Positions 1-15,026 of a DNA stretch of 48,964 bases are shown here, piece after piece. A program made the translations under genes and the position numbers. The stretch lies in contig JAFGJS010000072.1 in NCBI GenBank assembly GCA_016928995.1, forward strand, positions 1-48,964, written 5' to 3'. Within the stretch, counting starts at the first letter, position 1. Every line of letters starts with the position of its first letter. The notes below the pieces were generated by a model. That model was not told where the DNA came from and did no database searches. It saw only the letters and a program-made list of their open reading frames with translations. The DNA comes from Candidatus Sumerlaeota bacterium. Lineage in GTDB: Bacteria; Sumerlaeota; Sumerlaeia; JAFGJS01.

Positions 1-181
1 CCGATAACATTTTTATTTCATGGAGTGACACCATTTCCAGATAAATTCCTTTTGGTTGCGGCTACGCCGCGCTATGCTGGTATGTCATACGCTTACAGCG
101 CTTCACTATATATTGCCTTTCAACATTACTATCGTACTTGGCTGTGCCACATCATTGCTATCGTTCTACGCGGCTAAATGG
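1..181. other. Gene-free left edge
   Basis: No coding region is supported here. The only structure seen is a short palindrome at 58-70 (GCGGC-TAC-GCCGC). This is the region downstream of the minus-strand polyferredoxin gene that ends at 182. No T-run terminator is evident. Confidence 0.5.
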
Positions 182-1474
182 CTACAGACATTGCTTCTCC
201 TGTAAAATCTTGGATGACGGATCTTCAGGGCAATACGGGATGCAGCGCGCACAGCTGAAACACGTGGCGCGATCCACGTTGTACTCATCGCGCGTGCGAT
301 GCACCGAACTGCCCAAAATCAGCAGGCCGAACGCCAGCCCGGCGAACGCGCCGGCTCCCGCGCCGCCGATGCGGAACGCCTGGCGCAGGCTTCGCGCGTC
401 CGCCAGCAGTTCTTGCTTCGTGGCGCCGGACATGCGAAAGGCGTCGCTGGCGTTCGTGGAACCTTCCACCCAGCCGGCGTCCTCCACGGCCACTCGCTCA
501 GCCAGGGCAACAGTTCGATGCGCGCGGGAGAGAGGCCCGCCCGCGAACCAGCCGATAGCGCCGCCGCCGATGAGCAGCGCTGGAATCAGCGCGAACAGCA
601 TGGCCAGCCTTCGCACGCCATGCGCGCGCGGCTCCCTGGGCGGCTGCGTCGGCGTGTTGATCGCGCCGAAGGGGCAAGAGTTTTCGCATAAACGGCACAA
701 GGTGCAGCGCTCCGGCGCGATGCTCATGTGCCACTTGCTCAGCCGCGACATCCATCCCAGCAACACGCCGTACGGGCAAAAATACCGGCAGTATGGCCGT
801 GCGATGAACACGCCCACAAGCAGAAATCCAGCGCCAAGCCAGAGCGTCTGCCAATGGCCGGTCAGGCGAAACAGCGGCACGAACGGATCGAAGCGGCAGA
901 TGATGAAATCCGCGCGCGTGGCGGCGAAAAGCACGGCGGCGCCGAGATAGATGTACGGAAAGACGCCCAGCGCGCGGTCGATCCAGCGCGGCACGGCGAT
1001 TGGCTTGAGCGCGAACAAATCCTGAATCGCGCCCAGCGGACAGACTCCGCCGCAATAAATGCGCCCGAACAGCAACGCGAAAAACAACGGCGCAAGAAAA
1101 ACGATCAGCGTGCCATAACTCACGGCATACTCCGGATCGAACAGCGCCAGCGACATGTTCTGAATCGCTCCAATGGCGCAGATGCAGCCCTGCTTGTAAA
1201 AGCCGAAGTAGAGCAGGGAAAAAATCGTCAGCCCCAGCATGCCACGCCGGGTACGTTTCTTCAGCACGAAATACGTGCCCAGCGACAGTGCGCCCAGCAG
1301 CACGGCTGCGTCCAGAAATTCATAAAACCACGGCGCCGGAGCGGCATGCTGATATTGCGGAAAATTGTAGCCGCTCTCGAAGTCCGGCTTGGGAAAACGC
1401 TGCTCCGCAGCCCAGGCCATGCCCAGCAAGGCCATCGTTCCCGCAGCCAGCCATATGCGCGGTTTGAGCCTCAT
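182..1474 (-). CDS. NapH/RdxA-like membrane polyferredoxin
   Basis: This 430-residue inner-membrane iron-sulfur protein probably passes electrons between the quinone pool and periplasmic or cytoplasmic partners, like NapH, NosR and CcoG relatives. Several hydrophobic segments are seen (about 8-23, 52-71, 78-94, 120-137, 168-185, 210-226, 288-312 and 370-390). Two CxxxCP motifs typical of NapH-type proteins occur at C141/C145 and C229/C233. A ferredoxin-type cluster motif lies at C257-C260-C263-C267 and a second at the extreme C-terminus (C405-C408-C411-C415). NapH is usually under 300 residues, so the extra C-terminal membrane-plus-ferredoxin part is an extension. The start codon overlaps the stop of the upstream NapG-like gene by 4 bp (ATGA), so the two are probably translationally coupled. 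It is the last gene of a five-gene minus-strand operon. The family is secure; the precise partner is inference. Confidence 0.85.
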   Translation of the reverse strand: MRLKPRIWLAAGTMALLGMAWAAEQRFPKPDFESGYNFPQYQHAAPAPWFYEFLDAAVLLGALSLGTYFVLKKRTRRGMLGLTIFSLLYFGFYKQGCICAIGAIQNMSLALFDPEYAVSYGTLIVFLAPLFFALLFGRIYCGGVCPLGAIQDLFALKPIAVPRWIDRALGVFPYIYLGAAVLFAATRADFIICRFDPFVPLFRLTGHWQTLWLGAGFLLVGVFIARPYCRYFCPYGVLLGWMSRLSKWHMSIAPERCTLCRLCENSCPFGAINTPTQPPREPRAHGVRRLAMLFALIPALLIGGGAIGWFAGGPLSRAHRTVALAERVAVEDAGWVEGSTNASDAFRMSGATKQELLADARSLRQAFRIGGAGAGAFAGLAFGLLILGSSVHRTRDEYNVDRATCFSCARCIPYCPEDPSSKILQEKQCL

Positions 1475-2067
1475 CGCACGCGCCTTGTCTTGAGCGGAAC
1501 TTTATCCGGATCGTAGCCGCGCAACAGGTACGGCTTGTCCGCGGGCACGCGCTTGTAGGCGTTCGACGGACACTTGCGCGCGATGGAGCACTGATTGCAA
1601 TTGATACAGCGGTCATGGCGGACTTGCAGGAAAAAGGAGCCATTGCCGAACGCCAGACACGGCTTGACGCATTTGCCGCAGCCGATGCACAACTCCTCGT
1701 CAATGTTGTACTCATAGTACGGCTCTTCGACGAAGACGCGCTCGATGGCGCCGGCCGGACAGAGCAAATTTTCCGCGCCGGTGTTCAGGTCCGTGATCCC
1801 CGGCTGGAAATAGCCGAAGCAAAGGTCGCAGTAGCCGCAGATTTCGTAATTCTGCACGCACTTGACCGCCGAGGGATTCAGCACGCATTCCGTGGCGCAT
1901 TGGCCGCACTGGATGCAGATGTCCGGATCGAGCTGCCAGACCCACTCGCGGCGGCGCGCCTGACCCACGGTCGCCGCGCCCAATCCGCCCAGCGCCAGCG
2001 TGGCGCCCACGCCCAAGGCGCCGCGCAAAAATCCGCGACGGGAGGGCTGCCGTGAATCGTCAGACAT
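1471..2067 (-). CDS. NapG-like Tat-secreted ferredoxin with four Cys clusters
   Basis: This 198-residue protein is probably an exported electron carrier working with the membrane polyferredoxin encoded next. A twin-arginine signal (SRRGFLRG, residues 9-16) is followed by a hydrophobic stretch to about residue 33. Cysteines fall in ferredoxin spacing: C51/54/57/61 with C70, C77/80/83 with C103, C127/130/133/137, and C154/157/160/166. That gives up to four [4Fe-4S] clusters, as in NapG. The start at 2067 was chosen over an in-frame upstream codon at 2157 because it is preceded by a strong AAAGGGGGG ribosome site and puts the Tat motif at the N-terminus. It overlaps the upstream 80-residue gene by 8 bp and the downstream gene by 4 bp. 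No nitrate or nitrite reductase lies nearby, so the usual Nap role is not implied. Confidence 0.85.
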   Translation of the reverse strand: MSDDSRQPSRRGFLRGALGVGATLALGGLGAATVGQARRREWVWQLDPDICIQCGQCATECVLNPSAVKCVQNYEICGYCDLCFGYFQPGITDLNTGAENLLCPAGAIERVFVEEPYYEYNIDEELCIGCGKCVKPCLAFGNGSFFLQVRHDRCINCNQCSIARKCPSNAYKRVPADKPYLLRGYDPDKVPLKTRRVR

Positions 2068-3461: not shown

Positions 3462-4939
3462 GGCGCTTCGCGCTCCGCTCGCAAATCAAGACAGATCATC
3501 GTCCTCGAATCGCGCAGGATCAAACGGCCGTCCACCATCGCCATCGGCGCCCAGGCATCCCGGCCGTGCAACGCCTGCACGCTGGCGAGTTCCGCGTACT
3601 CCCCGCCGTCCGCACGGGCCATCAGCAACTTGCCGTCATCGTTCAACAACAGGACTTTGTTATCCGCGATCAGGTAAGGCCCCAGTCCAAAACGGCGCGT
3701 CTTTCCACTATTCCATACCACGCCGCCGTCCGCGGCGTCCAGATCAAAGCAGACCAACTGGCGCTTCATGCCGCCGCCGTCGGCGGTCATCACGCTGTAT
3801 ATCCGGCCTTGATAAAAGATCGGAGTTTGCTGTTCGCAGGCAAGCTCCGTCTTGTCCAATCGCCGTTCCAGCTGCGCCGTATATAATCCATCATCCTGAT
3901 GCTCGATGCGCAGAATCATCGACCCGGCGCCGTAGCCGGCGGTCACGAACACCCGGTTTGCATCCAACTGCACCGGCGACGGCACAACCACGGAGACGTT
4001 CCAGTCCTGCGATTCCCACAGTATCGCGCCCACGTCGCCGCCGTCCGCCGCGATCCCCGCGATGCCGCCAACGGCGCTATAGACGTACATCCGCCGTCCG
4101 GCCAGTTGCATCGGGAAGATCGAGGAGTGCGACATCTGCCAGCCGCGCGGATTGGGCGAGCGCCAGCGCTCCGCGCCGGTCTGCAGATTCAGCCCAATCA
4201 GCAGCGCATCCGGTCCGCCCGGCGCCAGCACGACCGTATCGCCGTCGATCAGCGGGCATTGCCCGGCGTACCATAGCGGCGCCTTCGCGCCATATTGCCT
4301 TACCAGATCAACGCCCCACTTGAATTCACCGGTCAGCGCGTCGCAGCACAGCACGTGGCACTTCGGGCCGATCGTGACGACACATCCGCCGCCAACCGCG
4401 GGCACGGTGCGGCTGATGCCATGATTGCGCTTGATTTTCACGTCATACGCCCGCCGCCAGAGCTCCGCGCCGCTCTCCAGCGCAAAGCAGCGCAGCATGT
4501 CCGCCCGCTCCTGCTCGTCGTAATCCAGCACGTAGACGCGGCCGTTCCACACCGCCGCCCCGGCGTGCCCCTCGCCGAGTTCCAGCCGCCAGAGTTCGGG
4601 CGGCCCGCCCTCCGGCCAGGCGTCGAGCAACGGCGGCGAATCTTCCGCGATGTTGTTAAAATCCTCGCCGCGAAAGCGCGGCCAGGCGCCTTGCGCCGGT
4701 TGCATCGGCGCCGGGTGGGTGGTTAGAATTGGCGCGTCGTTGAAAACCAGGAAATGTCCTTCCAGGTCGACCTGCTTCTCCAGCGCCTTGCGCTGAGCCG
4801 CGCCATCCATCCCGGGCGTGCGCAACGGCAGATCCACCGCCGCCGGGGTTTGCATCCACCACGCCAGCGAAACAATCGCCAGGATCGCCGAGATCAACGT
4901 CGCGATCCGCCCAATCTGTTTCGGCTCCAAGTCCATCAT
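3458..4939 (-). CDS. Membrane-anchored PQQ-like beta-propeller
   Basis: This protein of about 493 residues has an N-terminal membrane anchor and a periplasmic beta-propeller of PQQ-like blades. The repeated pattern is hydrophobic-strand, D/N-G, then TG-x-E-L/K-W (for example ALESGAELWRR, ALTGEFKWGV, LQTGAERWRS). It starts with the WPRFRGEDFNN type motif common in PQQ-like propellers. Whether a quinone cofactor binds cannot be told; these folds often do not bind PQQ. An in-frame GTG at 4957 would add six residues, but a GGAG sits too close to it; the ATG at 4939 was chosen, without a strong ribosome site. It is the first gene of the minus-strand operon, is coupled by a 4-bp overlap to the NHL gene, and is divergent from the surface-protein gene at 5209. 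Confidence 0.8.
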   Translation of the reverse strand: MMDLEPKQIGRIATLISAILAIVSLAWWMQTPAAVDLPLRTPGMDGAAQRKALEKQVDLEGHFLVFNDAPILTTHPAPMQPAQGAWPRFRGEDFNNIAEDSPPLLDAWPEGGPPELWRLELGEGHAGAAVWNGRVYVLDYDEQERADMLRCFALESGAELWRRAYDVKIKRNHGISRTVPAVGGGCVVTIGPKCHVLCCDALTGEFKWGVDLVRQYGAKAPLWYAGQCPLIDGDTVVLAPGGPDALLIGLNLQTGAERWRSPNPRGWQMSHSSIFPMQLAGRRMYVYSAVGGIAGIAADGGDVGAILWESQDWNVSVVVPSPVQLDANRVFVTAGYGAGSMILRIEHQDDGLYTAQLERRLDKTELACEQQTPIFYQGRIYSVMTADGGGMKRQLVCFDLDAADGGVVWNSGKTRRFGLGPYLIADNKVLLLNDDGKLLMARADGGEYAELASVQALHGRDAWAPMAMVDGRLILRDSRTMICLDLRAEREAP

Positions 4940-5208
4940 GCCATACTTGTCTCGCACTCCATTTTAAAAAGTATGATCTTTGGATGATCCACAGATCTCA
5001 TACGTATAGCAAAAGCTTTCTTAAAGGCTGCATCGATCCATATGAAAAGACCGTCTTTCGCAACGATAACGCCTTTTATTGTTCTTTTGTATTGATTTTA
5101 CGATCTAATTTTATATAAATATTATTTGGTTTTATGTCTTTCTATATTTTTGTTTTTTTGCGCTGTTACATTGTTGATCTTGAAATCAATCCAATGGGGA
5201 ACTGAACA
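4940..5208. other. Divergent AT-rich intergenic region
   Basis: About 270 bp between two divergently transcribed genes. It is strikingly AT-rich from about 5080 to 5170 compared with its GC-rich neighbours and probably holds promoters for both directions. A ribosome site (GGGGA, about 8 bp before the ATG at 5209) is seen at its right end. Confidence 0.55.
5092..5119 (+). promoter_or_regulatory. Candidate sigma-70-like promoter
   Basis: TTGATT (5092-5097) and TATAAA (5114-5119) are separated by 16 bp, about 90 bp upstream of the surface-protein start at 5209. The match is decent, but the surrounding region is so AT-rich that chance matches are likely. Confidence 0.25.
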
Positions 5209-8200
5209 ATGCGTTTATCTGTCGGGGTTTTGACGTTACTACTGATTTCCAGCCTCTATTCGCCGATTGCCTCTGCATTCAGCGGCGCAGGCAGCGGCAC
5301 AGTCGGCGATCCCTATGTCATCACCGACGTCATGCAGTTGCAGGAGATGCAGGACGACCTCGCGGCGCATTACATCCTAGGCAATGACATCGACGCCACG
5401 TCCACCTCGCTGTGGAACGACGCCAGCACATCAACCGATACGCTTGAAGGTTTCGATCCCGTCGGCGACGATACGAATGCCTTCCTGGGATCGCTCGACG
5501 GCGACGGCTTTGCGATCTCCAATCTCTATATCAATCGTCCGGAAGAATTCTATATTGGCTTGTTTGGCTATGCCGACGAAGGCAGCTCCATCACGAATCT
5601 TAGCCTTGTCGATTGCGACATCTCAGGAGCCGTATATGTCGGAACATTGGCGGGGCGCGCCAGGATGACCATGACGAATTGCGACGCGATAGGAGTCATA
5701 CACAATGATGATATGATGCTCGTTGGAGGATTAATCGGCTCATTGTACTACGGCTCGATCTCCCAATGTCATGCTGATGTCGATATCAATGCAGCTTCAT
5801 ATTGTGAAACTATCGGCGGATTGGCAGGACTCAATAATCATAGCACGCTATCAGAATGCACCTCAACTGGCGACATTAATGGAGTCTGTTTTACCGTCGG
5901 CGGTTTGGTTGGAGAGAACAGCTACGGATTGATTTACCGTTGCCACACAACCTCTCAATTCAATCTAACTGAAGAACCAAATATTATCGGCGGATTGGCT
6001 GGCTACAATATTGGCTCTTCAGGAGAGTTCAGCGAGGAGGGCGCGATCATTGAGTGCTCTGCCGAAAACTCTGTCCATGGCTATAATCACACCGGCGGTT
6101 TAGTTGGTATTATGGACCGGGGTCTGATTACAAAATGTCGAGTCAACACCGACGCCGCAGGAAACCTATATGTTGGTGGAATCGTCGGGAAAGCAGAAGA
6201 TGGAGCGATCATCCAATGCCATGTGACGGGAACCATCAGCGGCGGCAGCTTCATCGGAGGAGTGGCCGGATTTTATGGCGACTGCGAAATCAAACAATGC
6301 TACGTCGAAGGAATCATTTCAGGTGATAATCCCTGCGGCTTGTCCGACTGGGGATTTGGACCGGTTTCGCAATGTTATGTGGCGGCGGAACTTGACGCAA
6401 GCATCGAAGCATTCGCCTTAGTCTGCAAAAACGGAGACGGCCCCTTTCAGGATTCATTTTGGGACGCGACCTTGAATCCCGGAATTTCCGCAACAGGTGA
6501 TTTTGGCACGGATCCGGTCAATTGCTACGGCGTATCGGAAGCGGAGTTGATGCGGAAGACGACGTTCGAGGGAACAGGCGGCTATGCGCTGACCGAGGCG
6601 TGGGATTTCGCTTCGAACGATGGCGTGTGGTGGATTATTGAAGACGAGACCATGCCATTCTTTCAGTGGGAGTATCTCGGCTCGCGCTTGACATGGGCGC
6701 TATCCGACGGTGAAACCACGGGCGCAGCAGAGCAGACTGTCGTCGTCGAATGGAGCGATCCGGTCACCAGTTTCACGATTCCTGATGATTTGACATTGAT
6801 CAATTGCACGGCCGGCGGCCTGATGGATTACGGCACATCGGCCAGTTTCAACGTTACCGCATCGAGCGAAGGCGCCTTCAGCGTGCGCGTGACATCCGGC
6901 TGCGTCACGAACGCCGAAGGCCGGTTGAATCTGAATTCCAATTTGCTTGTGGCGAATTACATGGAGCCGCCTGCGGCGCCTGCGGATTTGAGCGCGACAG
7001 CGACTTCGCAGACGCTGATCCAGTTGACCTGGACCGACAATGCGGATGATGAATCCGGCTTTGAACTGGAACGCAGCCTGAACGGCGTGGATAGCTGGAC
7101 GCTGATTACGTCTCCCACGGCGAACGTGGAGGCGTACGATGACGCGCCTTTATCGCCGGCGACCACGTATCATTACCGCGTCCGAGCCGTGAATGCGGGC
7201 TGCGCATCGGCATGGTCGAACATCGCGGCTGCCGCAACGCTGCCGAATCCACCTGCCGCGCCGACGGAACTGACCGCGATTGCATCGTCGCAAACGCGCA
7301 TCGAACTGACATGGACCGACAACGCGGATAATGAGACGACTTACACGTTGGAGCGGAGTCCGAACGGAGAGGATGATTGGACCGTCGCGGCCGAGCTGCC
7401 GGAAAACACAAGCGCATGCGCCGATGACGAGCTCACCACCGCGACGCCATACTTCTATCGCCTTCGCGCCGAAAACACCGGCGGCGTTTCGGCATGGTCG
7501 AACATCGCAGAGGCCACGACGCTGCCCGATCTCCCGCTTGCGCCGACAGACATAAGCATCGCGATGACGTCACAGACGCAGATTGCAATCTCCTGGAGAG
7601 ATCGCTCCTACAACGAAACCGGCTTTATCGTTTACAGCGGTCCGGGAGCGCAGGCGCCCGCAACGCCGACGACAACAACCCTGGCCGATGCCGGTCAATT
7701 CACCACAACTGGTTTGGCGATCAACGCGCAATACGCCTTCCAGGTCGCGGCCACGAACGCCGCCGGCGACAGCGCAAAAACGGAGAACGTCACCACGTGG
7801 ACCTTGGCCGCCATGCCTGCGGTGTTGGAAGCGGGCAATCCTACCACGGATTCCCTGGAGCTCGCCGTCGGCGCGGATGACGGCAATCCGACGCACACCT
7901 TATATGCCATGTATTGCGAAACAACTAAGCAATGGCTGGCGGCGTCCGGCACGCTGGAATCGGCGGCGGCGTACCAGACGCGCGCGGATTGGGGCGACAT
8001 CACCGTGCGCGGTTTGACCAAGGGGACGACCTACACGTTCCATGCCGTCGCGCAAAACGGCGCGAGGATCGACACCCTGCCCGGACCTTCGGTCTCGCTG
8101 GCCACGCTGCTTCCGGTTTACATCCTGACCGTCATTGCGGAAAATGGCGTGGTCGTGCGCGATCCGGACGCCGGCTCATACATCGAGGGAACGACAGTCA

Positions 8201-8466
8201 CGCTGACAGCGGAAGCGGCGGCCAGCCATGCATTCACAGGCTGGAGCGGCGACGTTCCATCCGGCGATGAAACCGACAATCCCTTGTCCATCGTCATGGA
8301 TAACGATAAGACGCTCACCGCCAACTTCCTGGAAATCGTGCCCGTCACCGATGAACAATTGCGCGATTATCTGTTGGGAATCATCTCGCTGACGCCGGGA
8401 CAATGTCTGGGCGCCGACCGTAATCAGGACGGCTACATCGACATCGGCGATTTGCTCGCGCAATAA
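5209..8466 (+). CDS. Secreted GLUG/fibronectin III protein with dockerin-like C-terminus
   Basis: This 1085-residue exported protein begins with a signal peptide (cleavage probably after SPIASA, residue about 23). Residues about 25-430 consist of repeated GG-L-A/V-G units spaced by Cys/Thr-rich strands (GLUG-like beta-helix). A segment at about 490-590 is followed by three fibronectin III-like domains (about 590-680, 682-772, 775-870) with the repeated motif LTWTDNADDE/LTWTDNADNET. Next come another FN3-like stretch and a bacterial repeat domain (about 985-1040, AFTGWSGD with DNDKTLTANF). It ends with a dockerin-like calcium loop, DRNQDGYIDIGD (about 1070-1081). The role is probably adhesion or anchoring; no catalytic motif was recognised. 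It is transcribed alone, divergent from the propeller operon, with a good ribosome site. Confidence 0.85.
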   Translation: MRLSVGVLTLLLISSLYSPIASAFSGAGSGTVGDPYVITDVMQLQEMQDDLAAHYILGNDIDATSTSLWNDASTSTDTLEGFDPVGDDTNAFLGSLDGDGFAISNLYINRPEEFYIGLFGYADEGSSITNLSLVDCDISGAVYVGTLAGRARMTMTNCDAIGVIHNDDMMLVGGLIGSLYYGSISQCHADVDINAASYCETIGGLAGLNNHSTLSECTSTGDINGVCFTVGGLVGENSYGLIYRCHTTSQFNLTEEPNIIGGLAGYNIGSSGEFSEEGAIIECSAENSVHGYNHTGGLVGIMDRGLITKCRVNTDAAGNLYVGGIVGKAEDGAIIQCHVTGTISGGSFIGGVAGFYGDCEIKQCYVEGIISGDNPCGLSDWGFGPVSQCYVAAELDASIEAFALVCKNGDGPFQDSFWDATLNPGISATGDFGTDPVNCYGVSEAELMRKTTFEGTGGYALTEAWDFASNDGVWWIIEDETMPFFQWEYLGSRLTWALSDGETTGAAEQTVVVEWSDPVTSFTIPDDLTLINCTAGGLMDYGTSASFNVTASSEGAFSVRVTSGCVTNAEGRLNLNSNLLVANYMEPPAAPADLSATATSQTLIQLTWTDNADDESGFELERSLNGVDSWTLITSPTANVEAYDDAPLSPATTYHYRVRAVNAGCASAWSNIAAAATLPNPPAAPTELTAIASSQTRIELTWTDNADNETTYTLERSPNGEDDWTVAAELPENTSACADDELTTATPYFYRLRAENTGGVSAWSNIAEATTLPDLPLAPTDISIAMTSQTQIAISWRDRSYNETGFIVYSGPGAQAPATPTTTTLADAGQFTTTGLAINAQYAFQVAATNAAGDSAKTENVTTWTLAAMPAVLEAGNPTTDSLELAVGADDGNPTHTLYAMYCETTKQWLAASGTLESAAAYQTRADWGDITVRGLTKGTTYTFHAVAQNGARIDTLPGPSVSLATLLPVYILTVIAENGVVVRDPDAGSYIEGTTVTLTAEAAASHAFTGWSGDVPSGDETDNPLSIVMDNDKTLTANFLEIVPVTDEQLRDYLLGIISLTPGQCLGADRNQDGYIDIGDLLAQ

Positions 8467-8531
8467 AACGTCAGCCCGGGCCTTGTTTGAACTGAACTTC
8501 CGCCCTCACTCACGGTCGGGCTGCTGCATTT

Positions 8532-8634
8532 ATTCTCGCACAGAGACACGGAGTGCACGGAGATTTCAATGATTGTATTCAAAGCAGATACGGAATCAGT
8601 TCTCTGCGCCATTGCGTCTCTGCGTTGAATTTTT
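8532..8634. repeat. Diverged CAGAGGCGCGGAG-family inverted repeat
   Basis: The left arm (about 8532-8562, GCACAGAGACACGGAG followed by TGCACGGAGA) is imperfectly complementary to the right arm (about 8600-8634, reading TCTCTGCGCC then GCGTCTCTGCGT). The arms resemble the perfect hairpin at 41720-41777, so this looks like an older copy of the same family. It lies in the 249-bp gap between the surface-protein gene and the sigma factor. Confidence 0.6.
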
Positions 8635-8715: not shown

Positions 8716-9312
8716 ATGGATCCTTCGCTTTCCGATGCAATGTTGCTGCGTATGTATCTCCGCGGGGAACGGTCGGCGTTCGACGCGCTCTATCGGCGGC
8801 ATTGCGCCATGACGCACGCGACGGCCTACCGGTTGACGCAGCAATGGGACGACGCGGAGGAGGTGTTGCAGGAAGTGTTCCTCAAACTGGCGCGCAACGC
8901 CCGGGAGCTTCGCGAGCCGCAATACCTGAGGACGTGGCTGTATCGCACGACGATCAACGCGGCATACGACGCGCTGCGTCAGCGCCAGAAGCAGCGCGGC
9001 CGCACGATCAGCGAGCAGGAATGGCGCAAGGTGGTTTCGATGGAGAGCATGCGCCGCGAAACAGAGCGCCGGGAGGCGCGGGATCATGACCGGCTGCTTG
9101 CGCAGGTAGAGGCGCTGATCCCCCGTTTGCCGGAGCGTCAGGGCGCGGCGGTGGTGCTGCGGGTTTTTCAAGGATTGAGTTTCAACGAGATCGCGCAGGT
9201 GATGCAGATCTCGGAAGGCACGGCCAAGAGCCATTATTCGCTGGCTGTAAGCAAATTAAAGCAGTGGTGCGAGAAAGAGGTCAGGGATCAGAGGTCAGAG
9301 GCTAGTCGATAG
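8716..9312 (+). CDS. ECF-type RNA polymerase sigma factor
   Basis: This 198-residue protein directs RNA polymerase to a specific promoter set. Region 2 is seen at about residues 20-90 (WDDAEEVLQEVFLKLARN, then LRTWLYRTTIN). Region 4 lies at about 135-185 (LPERQGAAVVLR, then GLSFNEIAQVMQISEGTAKSH, the helix-turn-helix). The length fits the ECF group, which lacks region 3. The last dozen codons (after SKLKQWCEKE) read through a GGTCAGA-type repeat, so the tail is probably repeat-derived. It is followed by a single-pass membrane protein that could be its anti-sigma partner, then by pseudopilus genes in the same direction. This suggests, but does not prove, that it controls that cluster. Confidence 0.92.
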   Translation: MDPSLSDAMLLRMYLRGERSAFDALYRRHCAMTHATAYRLTQQWDDAEEVLQEVFLKLARNARELREPQYLRTWLYRTTINAAYDALRQRQKQRGRTISEQEWRKVVSMESMRRETERREARDHDRLLAQVEALIPRLPERQGAAVVLRVFQGLSFNEIAQVMQISEGTAKSHYSLAVSKLKQWCEKEVRDQRSEASR

Positions 9313-9386
9313 ATCGGGAAGAGGGAGTGTTGTTTTGGCAGGAAAACTCGGACTTGTCGGACCAGTCAGACCAGTCAGACAAGCCG
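9277..9386. repeat. Short tandem repeats: GGTCAGA track and 9-bp GAC-N-GTC units
   Basis: Two low-complexity stretches lie side by side. At 9277-9304 GAGGTCA-type units (GAGGTCAGGGATCAGAGGTCAGAGG) form the end of the sigma-factor gene. At 9351-9386 there are four 9-bp units (GACTTGTCG, GACCAGTCA, GACCAGTCA, GACAAGCCG). Related 9-bp units recur at 12286-12348. The stretch is in front of the preferred start (9441) of the next gene. Confidence 0.75.
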
Positions 9387-9440
9387 GTTGAGTCGAATGG
9401 AGCGGAGCTGTCTGCTTGGACGGATCATTGGAAAAAAAGC

Positions 9441-10061
9441 ATGAAACGAACCGCCTTACATCATGATGATTGGATCGTCTTGCTGTCGGAAGACGCGCGG
9501 GATGAGACGCAGCGCGCCCGGCTGCTGGAGCGATTGGAAGACGGCCCGGCGCGGGAGCGGTACGAGTTCCACCTGCGGCTGCTCGACGCGGCGCGCGAGG
9601 CGCCGATGCCGGCTTCGTCGCAGGTGTATTACGACGGCGTGCTGGAAACGATTCACCGGCGCATGCCGCAGTCGCCGGCCCCGGCGCGCCGCAGACCGGT
9701 CTGGCGCATATCCCGCCAGGCCGGCGCTTCTTTGTTTATCTACGCCCTCATGCTTTTTGGCGTCGGCTTCAGTCTGCTGGCCGGCGGAGGCCTGATTGAT
9801 GAAAACGCAAATTCAGCAAGAATGAACAGCAGCAGAACGATGCTGGCGCAGGCGCCGGTGCGCACAACGCCGAACGCCAATCCTCCGCGAGCGGTGTATG
9901 TCAAAGGTCTGGGACCGGTGGCGGGAGGGCAGGCGCTGCGCGCAATGAACGACAGTGAACTGGCCCAGCTGGGCATCGCGCGGGAATACAACAACGGAGA
10001 GGCCCAATACGTTTTGTGCGGCCTTGCCCCGGAAAAATGTCAGCGAGGAATCTCATTATGA
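9441..10061 (+). CDS. Single-pass membrane protein, possible anti-sigma factor
   Basis: The family of this 206-residue protein is not recognised. Residues 1-90 look cytoplasmic: an acidic, helical N-terminus (WIVLLSEDARDE, then RARLLERLEDGPARERYEFHLRLL). One membrane helix lies at about 95-117, and about 90 residues follow outside, containing YVKGLGPVAGGQALRAMND and two cysteines near the end. Size, topology and its place right after an ECF sigma gene suggest an anti-sigma role, but no anti-sigma signature was identified. An in-frame GTG at 9327 would add 38 residues encoded partly by a 9-bp tandem repeat; the ATG at 9441 is preferred for that reason, though its ribosome site is weak. The stop overlaps the GspG start by 4 bp (ATGA), so it could instead be a pseudopilus assembly component. 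Confidence 0.6.
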   Translation: MKRTALHHDDWIVLLSEDARDETQRARLLERLEDGPARERYEFHLRLLDAAREAPMPASSQVYYDGVLETIHRRMPQSPAPARRRPVWRISRQAGASLFIYALMLFGVGFSLLAGGGLIDENANSARMNSSRTMLAQAPVRTTPNANPPRAVYVKGLGPVAGGQALRAMNDSELAQLGIAREYNNGEAQYVLCGLAPEKCQRGISL

Positions 10062-10615
10062 AGCGAAACGCCTTCACCTTTGTGGAGCTCACCGTGGTGA
10101 TGACGATCATCGCGATTCTGGCGGCGATCGCCATACCGAATTTTTTGGAATTTCAAACTCGGGCGCGCGTCTCGCGAACCAGGGCCGATCAGGCGGCGCT
10201 GCATGCGGCGTTGCAGGCGTACCGGCTGGATCAACGTGCATATCCGCCGAACCGGCAGGCTGGCGTGGCCGATCAATTTGCGCTGACCGCGCTGACCACG
10301 CCGATGTCTTATATCTCGCGCTTGCCGATCGATGAGTTTTCGCACCGGCCGACGGATCCCTTTTTTTACTACAACGGCCTGCAGGTCAATCCGGAAACCG
10401 GCGTGCATATTCAAAATCCCGACGCCCTGATGAACGGCTTCACCAGCGCGCTGGTCTGGTCGGTCGGACCGGACCATAATCAAGACGAAGCCGGGCTTTC
10501 GCCGGACATGCAGCCGGATATCCAGATTGATGAAAATGGCGAGGTCAGGATCCTGCTTTACGATCCGACCAACGGCACGACATCGAACGGCGACATCTTA
10601 CTGCTCGTGGATTAA
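10058..10615 (+). CDS. gspG: GspG-type major pseudopilin
   Basis: This 185-residue prepilin forms the pseudopilus or pilus fibre. The leader is MKRNA, cut before FTFVELTVVM, with the conserved Glu at position +5 of the mature protein. The hydrophobic helix continues through IIAILAAIAIPNFLEFQTRARVS. The C-terminal globular part has the typical DPF-YY-NG segment and a DP-NGT-SNGDI end (the GspG-like C-terminal pattern in this kind of bacterium). The start at 10058 was chosen because it has a GCGAGGAA ribosome site, lies 14 codons inside a longer open frame, and overlaps the previous stop (ATGA). It is the first pilin-like gene of the cluster and is separated from the next gene by repeat element copy 2. 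Confidence 0.9.
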   Translation: MKRNAFTFVELTVVMTIIAILAAIAIPNFLEFQTRARVSRTRADQAALHAALQAYRLDQRAYPPNRQAGVADQFALTALTTPMSYISRLPIDEFSHRPTDPFFYYNGLQVNPETGVHIQNPDALMNGFTSALVWSVGPDHNQDEAGLSPDMQPDIQIDENGEVRILLYDPTNGTTSNGDILLLVD

Positions 10616-10618
10616 AAA

Positions 10619-10750
10619 AGCGGATGTAAAAAACGTGGCACGGGCGTCTCGCCCGTGATTGCCGGAAGGAGAAAACCTTGGATTTTCCAGTGCTGCGCAT
10701 GGGCAAGATGCCCATGCCACAAACCAAGGTATCCTTTTTGCACACGTTCC
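10619..10750. repeat. Dispersed nested-hairpin element, copy 2
   Basis: This is the second copy of the element at 2319-2447. The same two palindromes are kept (CACGGGCG/CGCCCGTG at 10639-10657; CATGGGCA/TGCCCATG at 10698-10716), as are the GTGGCA/TGCCAC pairing and the A-rich/T-rich ends (GGATGTAAAAAACG left, CCTTTTTGCACACG right). The middle 35-40 bp differ between copies. It sits inside the pseudopilus gene cluster, just before the ribosome site (AAGGAA) of the next gene. Confidence 0.85.
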
Positions 10751-10763
10751 AAGGAATGAAACG

Positions 10764-11174
10764 ATGAGAGCGCTCACGATCCGACGATTGCCCAGTCATT
10801 TTGAAATCCGCCGCTGGCGTGCGCTGCTGATGATGCTGGCGCTGCACGGCGGTTTGATGTCATTCTATTTCATTTTGTTGACGCCGTTTGTTTTTGCATT
10901 TGATGAAATGTTCTCTAGTCTTGGCGCGGAATTGCCATCGCTGACGCAGCAAATCATGTACAGTTATCACATGCCCCTGCCATACAAAGTGCTGGCTGTT
11001 GTCAGCGTGACCTGCATCGACGCTCTAATTTTTATCATCCTGCGATATAATAAATTCCTGACGGCTTGCTGGTCGGTGGGATTCACGATGTGCATCGTAT
11101 TGATGATCGCCTTGATCCCGTTGTCGCTGTTTTTACCGTTGTTTTGTTTACCGTCATTAATACCTTCATCATAA
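10764..11174 (+). CDS. GspF membrane-skeleton protein (mini-GspF)
   Basis: This 136-residue, three-helix membrane protein (helices about 20-44, 74-93 and 106-128) matches only the membrane parts of GspF. The periplasmic loop FDEMFSSLGAELPSLTQQ (46-63) parallels FDDIFSGLGAQLPYMTEL in the GspF encoded next. The C-terminus FLPLFCLPSLIPSS parallels YLPLFTLPGLIPSS there. Both cytoplasmic helical domains of GspF (normally over 100 residues each) are absent. The ATG at 10764 has an AAGGAA site; the open frame extends upstream only through repeat element copy 2. It lies 13 bp before full-length gspF. It may be a regulatory or partner subunit of the assembly platform, or a decayed duplicate. The resemblance is seen directly; function is inference. 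Confidence 0.75.
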   Translation: MRALTIRRLPSHFEIRRWRALLMMLALHGGLMSFYFILLTPFVFAFDEMFSSLGAELPSLTQQIMYSYHMPLPYKVLAVVSVTCIDALIFIILRYNKFLTACWSVGFTMCIVLMIALIPLSLFLPLFCLPSLIPSS

Positions 11175-11187
11175 GGGAGCAAAACTC

Positions 11188-12252
11188 ATGATAGGCTTAT
11201 TCAACAGCGTTCCGCGCAGAATCGAAGACATCGCACTGCTGACGCGGCACATCTCGGGCGCGATGAAGGCGCGCGCGCCGATGCATGAAATCCTGCGGTC
11301 TTACGTGGCAGATTGCGAGCCGGGCAAGATGACGCGCGTGGTGAACGAGATGGCGGGCGACGTGGAGGCCGGAACATCCCTGGCCGACGCGCTGGACAAG
11401 CACATTCTCACCTTCCCCGCATCGTTCCGCCGCCTGGTGCGCGTGGGCGAGCAGAGCCGCACGCTCGAAGGCACGCTGGAGCAACTCGCCGTCAGCCTGG
11501 AGGAAGGATTGAAGAGCTACGAGTTCTTCCGCCGCGTGGCGATCTACCCGTTGTTCGTCACGATCCTGATCTGGCTCGATGTGATGTTCATCCTGATCTA
11601 CATCCTGCCGAAGTTTGACGATATTTTTTCCGGGCTGGGCGCCCAATTGCCTTACATGACTGAGCTCTGGCTGGGACTGAACCACAGCAACGTCGTGCCG
11701 ATCATTTTCACGCTGCTGATGCTGATCCCTATCGCCATGCTCACCGGCACGGCGCTGGGGCTGCGTTTCCGGCTGACCGGATCGGGGCGCTTCATGCTGC
11801 AACTGCCGTTCGCCGGCGTGGTGTTGCGCCGGATGGAAACGGCGCGCTTCACCAAAAACCTGGCGCTGCTGTTGGATGTGAACCTGCCACTGTCCGAAGC
11901 GCTGGGTCTGCTGGTCGATTCCACGGACAATGCATACGTGCAGTCCGCGATCCGCGATTTACAGCGGCGCTACGAAAGCGGCGAAAAGCTGGGCGGTTTG
12001 ATCGCCGGGCAGCCGCTCTTTCCGGCCGGCATGGCGGTGATCATCGCCTCGGCCGAGGATCGCGGCGGACTGGCGCAGGCGCTGCACGGCTTGTCAAAGT
12101 TCTACCAGGAACGCACGGCGCACGGTCTGGCCGTGATTCGCGAGATCTTCGAGCCAGTGCTGCTGGTGTTGGTCGGGCTGATGATCGCCATGCTGCTGCT
12201 GGCGATGTATTTACCGCTATTCACGCTGCCGGGTTTGATTCCGAGTTCGTGA
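11188..12252 (+). CDS. gspF: GspF/PilC-type inner-membrane platform protein
   Basis: This 354-residue polytopic protein is the assembly platform of type II secretion/type IV pilus machines; it couples the GspE ATPase to pilin addition. It has the classic layout: an N-terminal cytoplasmic helical domain (about 1-110, with AGDVEAGTSLADAL and FPASFRRLVRVGEQS), a membrane helix (about 118-140), the family loop PKFDDIFSGLGAQLP (141-155), a second helix (about 165-190), a second cytoplasmic domain (about 205-315, RMETARFTKNLALLLDVNLPL), and a final helix ending LPLFTLPGLIPSS. The length is slightly below the usual 400, mainly at the N-terminus. The ribosome site AGGGAG is well spaced. The 134-bp gap to gspE holds a 9-bp tandem repeat. 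Confidence 0.93.
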   Translation: MIGLFNSVPRRIEDIALLTRHISGAMKARAPMHEILRSYVADCEPGKMTRVVNEMAGDVEAGTSLADALDKHILTFPASFRRLVRVGEQSRTLEGTLEQLAVSLEEGLKSYEFFRRVAIYPLFVTILIWLDVMFILIYILPKFDDIFSGLGAQLPYMTELWLGLNHSNVVPIIFTLLMLIPIAMLTGTALGLRFRLTGSGRFMLQLPFAGVVLRRMETARFTKNLALLLDVNLPLSEALGLLVDSTDNAYVQSAIRDLQRRYESGEKLGGLIAGQPLFPAGMAVIIASAEDRGGLAQALHGLSKFYQERTAHGLAVIREIFEPVLLVLVGLMIAMLLLAMYLPLFTLPGLIPSS

Positions 12253-12285
12253 TGGGGAGCGTTGTGGCGCTGGTCGACGGTTTTC

Positions 12286-12348
12286 GGACAAGTCCGGCTC
12301 GTCGGACACGTCGGACTGGTCAGACAAGTCTGACTCGTCTGACCGGTG
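12286..12348. repeat. Seven 9-bp NGACNNGTC tandem units
   Basis: The units are GGACAAGTC, CGGCTCGTC, GGACACGTC, GGACTGGTC, AGACAAGTC, TGACTCGTC and TGACCGGTG. Most contain the self-complementary core GAC-NN-GTC, so several alternative hairpins are possible. The array sits between gspF and gspE, upstream of the ribosome site for 12387, and is related to the units at 9351-9386. An adjacent purine-rich GAGGACGAGAACGAGAAAGGA run ends in that ribosome site. Confidence 0.8.
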
Positions 12349-12386
12349 AAATGAATTACGAGGACGAGAACGAGAAAGGACCCGAC

Positions 12387-13619
12387 ATGACCATGCAAAT
12401 TCTGCATCCCCCGGAATCGTTGGATCACGCCCCGGTATGGTTGGGCGAGATGATCGAATGGGCGCACGCGCTGGGCGCCACGGACGTGCATCTCTTTCCC
12501 TCGACCGACGGCGGACGCCTCTGGGTGCGCTTGAACGGCGACCTGCAGGAGATCTGCTCGTATTCCGTCGATCTGCACACGCGCATGGTCTCGCGGCTCA
12601 AGGTGCTGGGGCGCTGCACCGATTACACCGGCGCGCCGATCCAGGAAGGCCGCTTCGGCCTGAACGGCGTGAGCCGCGGCGGCGAGGCGCGCCTCTCCAT
12701 CATCCCCACGCTGCAAGGCGAAAAGGCGGTGATCCGGCTGCTGGCCGGAGAAAACCGGAAACTGGAGCTCGACCAGCTCGGCTTCGGCGAGGAGCTGCGC
12801 AGCGCATTGCGCTCGGCGATGGACCTGCCGCAGGGTTTGCTGCTGGCCGTAGCGCCCAGCGGCTGCGGCAAGAGCACCGCGCTATATGCGCTGCTGGCGG
12901 ATTTGCACGCGCGGCAATCGCGGCCGGTGTCAATCGTCACGCTGGAGGATCCGGTGGAGCAGAGCCTGCCCTTCGCGGCGCAGGTGAACATCGAAGCGGA
13001 ACGCGGCCTGACCTTCGGCGCCGGATTGCGCGCGATCCTGCGGCAGGATCCGGAAGTGATCCTGATCGGCGAAATTCGCGACGCCGAAACGTCGCGCGCG
13101 GCGCTGGAGGCAGCCCTCACCGGACATCGCATTCTGTCCAGCATGCACACCTTGAACGCCGCCGAGGCGCTGGCGCGGCTGATGCAGATGGGATCGCCGC
13201 CGTACATCATCGCCTCGGCGCTGGCTGGAATTTTGAACGTGAGGCTGCTGCGGCTGTGCTGCGAGCACTGCAAAACGGCGCGCACGCCGGAACCGCTCGA
13301 AGCAGAACGCATGCGCCGCATGCTGGGACAGACGCCGGAAAAAATCGCCGCGACCAAGGGCTGCGAGCGCTGTCTGGACTCCGGCGTGGGCGGACGCACG
13401 GGCGTGGGCGAATGGCTGACGCCGACGGCCGCCATGCCGCAGGCGCTGGGCGAGGGACGCCCCACGCCAGAGATTCAAAAAACGCTGCGCATCGTAGCCT
13501 CAGCACAGCAGGAAATCATGCGCCTGCTTACAGACCTTCAAATCGCGCCGATGGAACTGGCGCAACTGACTGGCATGAGTTCGCTGGAAACGCCGCCATC
13601 CGGAGAGTGCGAATCATGA
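12387..13619 (+). CDS. gspE: GspE/PilB-type secretion ATPase, short form
   Basis: This 410-residue cytoplasmic ATPase powers pseudopilus assembly. Seen in order: an N2-type domain (about 10-115, WLGEMIEWAHALGATDVHLF), a Walker A loop APSGCGKST (K162), an Asp box TLEDPVEQS, a Walker B ILIGEIRDAET, a His box SSMHTLNA, and a tetracysteine zinc domain (CCEHC, then CERC about 45 residues on) followed by GVGGRTGVGEW. The N1 domain of full GspE/PilB (about 500-570 residues) is missing, giving a PilT-like start on a GspE-like body. The ATG at 12387 follows a GAGAAAGGA site at good spacing; an upstream in-frame start at 12249 would translate the 9-bp repeat and is rejected. The stop overlaps the next start (ATGA). 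Confidence 0.9.
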   Translation: MTMQILHPPESLDHAPVWLGEMIEWAHALGATDVHLFPSTDGGRLWVRLNGDLQEICSYSVDLHTRMVSRLKVLGRCTDYTGAPIQEGRFGLNGVSRGGEARLSIIPTLQGEKAVIRLLAGENRKLELDQLGFGEELRSALRSAMDLPQGLLLAVAPSGCGKSTALYALLADLHARQSRPVSIVTLEDPVEQSLPFAAQVNIEAERGLTFGAGLRAILRQDPEVILIGEIRDAETSRAALEAALTGHRILSSMHTLNAAEALARLMQMGSPPYIIASALAGILNVRLLRLCCEHCKTARTPEPLEAERMRRMLGQTPEKIAATKGCERCLDSGVGGRTGVGEWLTPTAAMPQALGEGRPTPEIQKTLRIVASAQQEIMRLLTDLQIAPMELAQLTGMSSLETPPSGECES

Positions 13620-14170
13620 AAACGTCCAGCGTCATGACGCCGGTTTTGAAACTGCTTGCTCCGACAGCGGTAGCAGTCGCGCTGTTCTTCCTGCTTCTCT
13701 CCGGCTTTAATTATCCCGAGGATGCAATGCCCATCATCGCATTCGTGATTTTCGCTGTTTGGCTCGTGTTTGAGTTTTATTTTTTCCAGGAATTCATCGG
13801 GATGTGCCTTCGCCTGAATTTCTCCAGCCTGTCGCGAATGAGCGTACGGGCGAAAGAATATCCCATGGTTGCGAAAAACGATGGCGCGGGTTTTGTGCGC
13901 ATCTTTCCACTGACGCTGTTCATCTGGATCATCGCCGCCTTATTGGGATATCTGGGTCAAAGCTTCGGATTCGTCATCGGTTTTCTCATTTTGGTCGCGG
14001 TATCGATGGGATTTTCCATCATGGAAATGATTTTTCTGCCGTCCTGCTTTCGCCGCGGCCCGGAGCTGCTGCGCGAGTCGCGCTGGGTGGCGGCGCAGCA
14101 CGGCATGGCGCTATTCACCTTGCTGGGAAGCGCTGCTCTGGCGTTCACGTTTGTTTCATTGTTTTTTTGA
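13616..14170 (+). CDS. Five-helix membrane protein of the pseudopilus cluster
   Basis: The family of this 184-residue integral membrane protein is not recognised. About five hydrophobic helices are visible (about 12-29, 37-58, 92-112, 116-138, 163-183), with a short polar loop at 65-90 (NFSSLSRMSVRAKEYPMV) and a basic loop near 146-158 (CFRRGPELLRESRW). It is translationally coupled to gspE by a 4-bp overlap and is followed after 16 bp by another membrane protein fused to a prepilin. Its position suggests an extra inner-membrane component of the assembly, perhaps replacing GspL/GspM, which are missing here. That role is inference only. The same open frame extends far upstream antiparallel in sense to no known protein (it is the +1 shadow of gspE), so the start at 13616 is the meaningful one. 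Confidence 0.7.
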   Translation: MKTSSVMTPVLKLLAPTAVAVALFFLLLSGFNYPEDAMPIIAFVIFAVWLVFEFYFFQEFIGMCLRLNFSSLSRMSVRAKEYPMVAKNDGAGFVRIFPLTLFIWIIAALLGYLGQSFGFVIGFLILVAVSMGFSIMEMIFLPSCFRRGPELLRESRWVAAQHGMALFTLLGSAALAFTFVSLFF

Positions 14171-14186
14171 GAAAGGCGCATGAACC

Positions 14187-15026
14187 ATGGAAAGAACAGC
14201 GTTTTTGAACGGCCTGATGGGGATGAGCTTCGCGACGATGTTTTTCTTTATTCACTACATCTTATTGCAAATCCTGGGGCGCCGCAACACAGTCCGCTGT
14301 TTATGGATTGGCGTTGGCATGACTTTTCTGGTCAGCGCCGTTCTATCTTATTTAGCCGGAGGCATGGCGGTTATCCTATACGGAATCGGCGCCGCCGTGG
14401 TCATGCTGATCGTGTTTCCGGTCTGGGTCCGGCTCTCTTTGCCGGGAAATCTTGTCGCCTTGGTTCCGCTCTATCTTTCGTATCTCTTCTTATTCAATGC
14501 GCAGTATTTATTTTTCCTGGCGCCATTGATCGCAGCGATCTGTTGGATGATCCCGGCTCACCGGCGGCTGGCCGAGCTGGCCTCGCCGCGGCGCTTGCCG
14601 CGTCTGCGCCCGATGCGCCGCGTAAGATCATCGCCGCAGACCGGCATGACGTTGATCGAATTGCTGATCGTGGTGTTGATGATGGCCATCTTTGCCGCAG
14701 GCCTCAACTATGCCATCCAGGCGGCGTCGCGATCGCAGCGTTTCATCCAAAATCGCCTGACTGCGCTCGAACAGGCGGAAACGCAACTGGCGCGGCTCGC
14801 TGCGCGCGATACTTCGCCGCAACCGGGGACGTATCCGTTGGATGACGATCTACTCACGGATGACGTCGCCACGAGCGGGCAACTCATCATCGAAAATTTG
14901 GATAATCCGGCATTGCGGCTGGCGCGGGTGCGCGTGTCGATCACCGAAAAACCCGGCTACTATGTGACGCTGGAAAAAGTCCTCCCGGTTCACGGCAAGG
15001 AGCAAACACATGCGAGCATCCATTAA
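14187..15026 (+). CDS. Polytopic membrane domain fused to prepilin-like domain
   Basis: This 279-residue protein has two parts. Residues 1-122 are hydrophobic, with four or five helices (about 10-30, 38-57, 60-80, 88-120). Residues 123-150 form a basic linker (RRLPRLRPMRRVRSS). The second part starts with a complete prepilin signature: QTG followed by MTLIELLIVV (cleavage after G153, Glu at +5), an amphipathic helix and a small globular tail, resembling GspH/GspI-type minor pseudopilins. A normal prepilin leader is under 30 residues. An internal ATG at 14613 (residue 143) could start a free prepilin, but no ribosome site is visible before it. The gene overlaps the next prepilin gene by 17 bp. 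Either this is a genuine fusion or two products come from one frame. Confidence 0.75.
   Translation: MERTAFLNGLMGMSFATMFFFIHYILLQILGRRNTVRCLWIGVGMTFLVSAVLSYLAGGMAVILYGIGAAVVMLIVFPVWVRLSLPGNLVALVPLYLSYLFLFNAQYLFFLAPLIAAICWMIPAHRRLAELASPRRLPRLRPMRRVRSSPQTGMTLIELLIVVLMMAIFAAGLNYAIQAASRSQRFIQNRLTALEQAETQLARLAARDTSPQPGTYPLDDDLLTDDVATSGQLIIENLDNPALRLARVRVSITEKPGYYVTLEKVLPVHGKEQTHASIH

Follow-up and report, generated by a model that had tools for sequence, protein, structure and literature searches.

Genomic context of the reduced gspF-like gene

The stretch of DNA analysed here (the window, 48,964 nucleotides) comes from the genome of an uncultured Sumerlaeota bacterium and contains an operon in which a small gene encoding a reduced GspF/PilC-like protein lies between a pseudopilin gene and full-length gspF. 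The features of the operon, with transmembrane segments abbreviated as TM, are as follows:

8716-9312, ECF sigma factor at the head of the operon
9327-10061, one-TM protein
10016-10615, + strand, GspG-like pseudopilin upstream of the small gene (PF07963 and PF08334; TIGR01710 below its cut-off)
10618-10730, + strand, dispersed repeat with 18 matches in the genome, located after the pseudopilin and before the small gene
10751-10755, + strand, AAGGA, putative ribosome site of the small gene, read from the sequence
10764-11174, + strand, small gene; intact open reading frame for a reduced GspF/PilC-like protein of 136 aa with three predicted TM segments
10899-10946, + strand, periplasmic loop motif FDEMFSSLGAELPSLT (residues 46-61); eight of ten family-conserved positions exact, the other two changed from D to E and from I to M
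11133-11171, + strand, C-terminal tail LPLFCLPSLIPSS (residues 124-136)
11173-11179, + strand, AAGGGAG, putative ribosome site of gspF, read from the sequence; it overlaps the stop codon of the preceding small gene
11188-12252, + strand, full-length gspF, 354 aa (PF00482 in two stretches, E 3.9e-35)
12249-13619, + strand, gspE-type ATPase (PF00437, E 8.4e-78)
13616-14167, protein of 184 aa with several TM segments, located after gspE and before the fusion gene; no Pfam match
14187-15026, multi-TM/pseudopilin fusion

The start of gspF at 11188 lies 13 bp past the stop codon of the small gene, as given in the first-pass annotation. An Rfam search of the small-gene region returned no match, and no sigma-70-type promoter was seen there. 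After the fusion gene the operon continues with a pseudopilin and ends with a last small protein that has one hydrophobic N-terminal segment. The dispersed repeat is REP-like, recurs at 2319-2417 and carries two inverted repeats, GGCACGGGCGTCTCGCCCGTG and GCATGGGCAAGATGCCCATGC. The one-TM protein has a counterpart in the genome G006 (locus L084) with a cysteine spacing resembling that of a zinc-finger anti-sigma factor, which is lost here.

In this operon and in three orthologous ones, a pseudopilin carries an in-frame N-terminal fusion to a multi-TM membrane domain. The fusions of the relatives are located at 4653-5765 of locus L085, at 7323-8573 (- strand) of L086 and at about 1-1700 (minus strand) of L084. 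The four proteins contain prepilin-peptidase-like sites (SSPQTG/MTLIELL, RQKKG/TTLIELL, KKKKA/MTLIELL and RRQAG/TTLIELL). As the fusion is present in all four operons, an entire membrane protein seems to take the place of the prepilin 'leader', an arrangement that may be more unusual than the reduced platform gene itself.

Homology to GspF/PilC platform proteins

BLASTP of the small protein against the neighbouring GspF yielded two collinear matches at equivalent topological places, one comprising FDEMFSSLGAELPSLTQ (E 5e-5) and one comprising the C-terminal 26 residues (E 3e-7), with nothing else significant between the two proteins. The small protein contains the FxxIFxxLGAxLPxxT loop of the GspF/PilC family, with two conservative replacements. 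Profiles of GspFs of the class, built without the neighbouring GspF and without the PilC encoded on contig C85 of the same genome, scored 25.5 bits (hairpin) and 13.7 bits (tail). Matches in reference libraries were weak, with a best E of 0.058 for PilC/GspF models in NCBIfam and an E of 0.1 for residues 31-81 against the solved PilC 3jc8. Since hydrophobic proteins readily yield weak matches of this kind, a chance resemblance of an unrelated hydrophobic ORF was considered, but the two motifs match collinearly at equivalent places and none of the 5000 shuffles (within 12-residue blocks) attained either profile score, which makes it exceedingly improbable. Together these data support derivation of the small protein from the GspF/PilC family. 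Demonstrable homology is limited to the end of the first transmembrane segment (TMS1), the loop, TMS2, and the last part of TMS3 with the tail; the rest of TMS1 (before the loop) and the start of TMS3 have no recognisable sequence likeness.

Hydropathy identifies three hydrophobic segments in the small protein, and arginines at its N-terminus are consistent with a cytoplasmic N-terminus, so that an N-in/C-out topology like that of GspF is plausible. An AlphaFold2 model contains the expected helices at low confidence (pLDDT 65.7, pTM 0.40) and is too weak to back any interface. The intact reading frame, BLASTP, profiles and hydropathy thus agree with the first-pass description of a three-helix GspF derivative that keeps the loop and tail motifs. 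With known platform proteins (PF00482; PulF, PilG, ComGB) the small protein shares the loop, the LPLFxLP end and the operon place beside gspE, and probably also the three TM segments with their N-in/C-out topology.

Loss of the cytoplasmic domains and of the channel residues

Unlike these platforms, the small protein lacks Cyto1, Cyto2, the Tyr-Pro pair of TMS1 and the Glu-Pro pair of TMS3. A Pfam search found no T2SSF domain (PF00482/IPR018076) in it and two stretches of this domain in the neighbouring GspF, bearing out the proposal that both cytoplasmic domains, the N-terminal/Cyto1 part as well as Cyto2, are gone from the predicted product. Reduced platform proteins are also known from the TadB/TadC half platforms, which work as a pair (PMC10191384); each of these retains one platform domain, however, whereas the small protein has none according to Pfam.

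Platform topology and the roles of platform residues in the trimer and channel have been described for PulF, for which a crosslinking-supported model places TMS1 and TMS3 around a central channel with a constriction set by the Tyr-Pro and Glu-Pro pairs, and in which the N-domain is dispensable (PMC10790770). Among the GspFs of the class that were examined, Tyr-Pro is present in 53/53, the glutamate of TMS3 in 53/53 and the following proline in 49/53. Neither pair was found in the small protein: the residues equivalent to Tyr-Pro are L22, M23 or M24 (aligned by eye), and TMS3 has no glutamate, with Ser-Val at the place reached by counting back from the tail. The presumed deletion points are close to both pairs, whose loss therefore gives no date for the truncation and may be a consequence of the deletions themselves, not of later drift. 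Of the 15 loop and tail residues on the periplasmic side that are conserved in the family, the small protein keeps 13, with conservative changes at the other two; the retained elements are thus the outward-facing ones.

Distribution among relatives

The comparison set comprised 39 genomes of the class, in which the present genome is the sole representative of its family and order. The closest relatives of the neighbouring GspF (53, 48 and 45% identical) are encoded in the genomes G006, G007 and G008, where the order pseudopilin-gspF-gspE is the same and some 40-195 bp separate the first two genes; the small gene is absent from all three operons. A search of the phylum with the small protein returned full-length GspFs and a few fragments, and neither protein searches nor a DNA pattern of the loop-to-tail spacing revealed the reduced architecture in the 38 other genomes of the class. 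The spacing pattern matched in 12 of the 39 genomes, and the reduced architecture fits only the present one. In translation, the other matches proved to be the TMS2-KLPVFG region of full-length GspFs, members of an unrelated protein family or short-frame noise; the match at L104, judged from the matched DNA only, reads like the unrelated family. No close relative of the small protein was found in 84,980 species, in viral contigs or in plasmids.

Because it is missing from the orthologous operons, the class genomes and these wider collections, the small gene is lineage-specific as far as can be seen. The first-pass annotation had reasoned that a conserved membrane-only paralogue would be a new type of platform component, and had proposed looking for short GspF-like proteins beside gspF in other genomes. 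Conservation finds no support in the three operons, in the 38 genomes or, at close range, in the 84,980 species; as far as is testable for a family and order with one genome, the gene is absent from all relatives, though it may have a narrower distribution within its own order.

A periplasmic tail common to three platform-type proteins

A scan of the 39 genomes for DNA encoding the tail pattern PxFxLPxLIPSS found three occurrences, all in this genome: in the small protein, in the neighbouring GspF and in the PilC of contig C85. On the motifs, this PilC, a full-length protein (about 425 aa) at another locus, and not the neighbouring GspF is the nearest relative of the small protein, with 13/18 loop and 13/15 tail residues identical (counted by eye). 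The GspF (11188-12252) and the PilC (G000:C85:91628-92659) have in common the tail LPLFTLPxLIPSS and a nearly identical loop, unlike the GspF orthologues of relatives. At 31% overall identity, 13 of 15 loop residues are identical between the two, a near-identity that the G006 orthologue of GspF does not have.

One conceivable source of the loop and tail shared by gspF and C85 pilC is a recent gene conversion. Third-codon identity between the two genes in the loop block is 0.53, little more than the background of 0.44, and this resembles protein-level matching or exchange long ago more than it does a recent conversion. Over the final 15 codons of the tail the value reaches 0.73, and an old or partial conversion is possible there. 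The common loop and tail suggest that the three predicted proteins have a common partner or mix at their periplasmic face.

Selection and codon usage

In the loop and tail, dN between the small gene and both gspF and C85 pilC is 0.21-0.34 (0.29-0.34 against gspF alone), and dS is saturated in all comparisons except that of the loop with C85 pilC (1.2). These values depart from the dN/dS near 1 that had been named as a sign of decay, in two windows that were picked for being conserved. Third-codon identity between the small gene and gspF in the motifs is 0.33, and the final two serines are encoded by TCA TCA in the small gene and by AGT TCG in both gspF and C85 pilC. With its synonymous motif sites near saturation, the small gene is not a fresh partial duplicate, in support of the earlier suggestion.

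Codon adaptation of the small gene (0.525) is barely above that of out-of-frame reading (0.47-0.48 in shifted frames) and below that of its neighbours (0.62-0.74). Such erosion, the absence of the gene from relatives, its little conserved TMS1, the dispersed repeat directly upstream and channel pairs whose position near the presumed deletion points keeps their loss from dating the truncation all fit a remnant of a duplicated gspF or pilC from which the cytoplasmic domains were deleted and which drifts without function, its frame open by chance or for want of time. A decaying copy, however, should lose residues together with codon bias, and a recently truncated ancestral full-length paralogue would retain its codon bias. 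Drift was simulated with a mutational equilibrium of 45% GC, without indels and with settings not fitted to the organism. Codon adaptation fell to 0.525 after about 0.2-0.3 substitutions per site, at which point only 18-9% of simulated copies were free of stop codons. Because the dN/dS windows had been picked for conservation, a second test used positions defined only from other genomes. Under simulated neutral drift, 13 of 15 conserved residues were kept with a probability of 0.006 at 0.2 substitutions per site and of 0.0005 at 0.3. Simple neutral decay therefore fits the small gene poorly, and the gene looks maintained. A slowly decaying remnant nevertheless stays a serious rival, and we regard it as a real, if minority, possibility.

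Putative role of the small protein

We tentatively favour, at somewhat below an even chance, a lineage-specific and secondarily reduced platform protein that serves as an accessory subunit, as a competitor or as a binder of the platform's periplasmic partner. The small gene would have arisen by duplication and subsequent deletion, and its product would be made at a low level together with GspF. It could insert beside protomers of GspF, and perhaps also of PilC, making contact via the common loop and via TMS1 and TMS3 at their periplasmic ends. Lacking a cytoplasmic domain, it would be unable to couple to the GspE hexamer, and with the channel pairs missing it would be unable to complete the proposed ion path.

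Because the ATPase-facing domains and the channel pairs are absent, the role would be a passive or a competing one: the protein might be a passive accessory subunit or a competitor that tunes the number of active platforms formed. A further option is binding of the same pseudopilin or envelope partner as the periplasmic face of GspF and PilC, and contacts between platforms and pilins have been reported (PMC10191384). The more specific proposal, a maintained subunit that is neither motor-coupled nor conducting and has a common periplasmic face through which it mixes with GspF and possibly also with the second system's PilC, is in our view rather doubtful. Counting against an accessory subunit are the single genome, the absence from three orthologous operons, the poor codon usage, the unconserved TMS1 and the weak structural model.

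Alternatively, the product could be a small membrane protein whose role lies outside the platform, a chaperone or anchor of pseudopilins for instance, and whose GspF-type loop and tail bind a pseudopilin or some other envelope protein. Constraint on the periplasmic elements only, the several pseudopilins encoded in the operon and the reported platform-pilin interactions (PMC10191384) are compatible with such a function, but any partner would be conjectural, the gene adjoins gspF and the three-segment plan is that of GspF. We consider this alternative improbable.

The weight of the finding is limited by its restriction to a single genome. Among the core proteins of type IV filament machines, the platform is to our knowledge the one understood least, and ion conduction by it is a recent proposal. 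The private periplasmic tail common to three platform-type proteins hints at the same partner or at mutual contact. If the reading as a maintained subunit that mixes with GspF is true, the small gene would represent a natural split of the platform's periplasmic role from motor coupling and from the proposed ion path. A natural version with only the periplasmic elements, in which precisely the channel pairs and the motor-facing domains are missing, would indicate which part of the platform can function separately.
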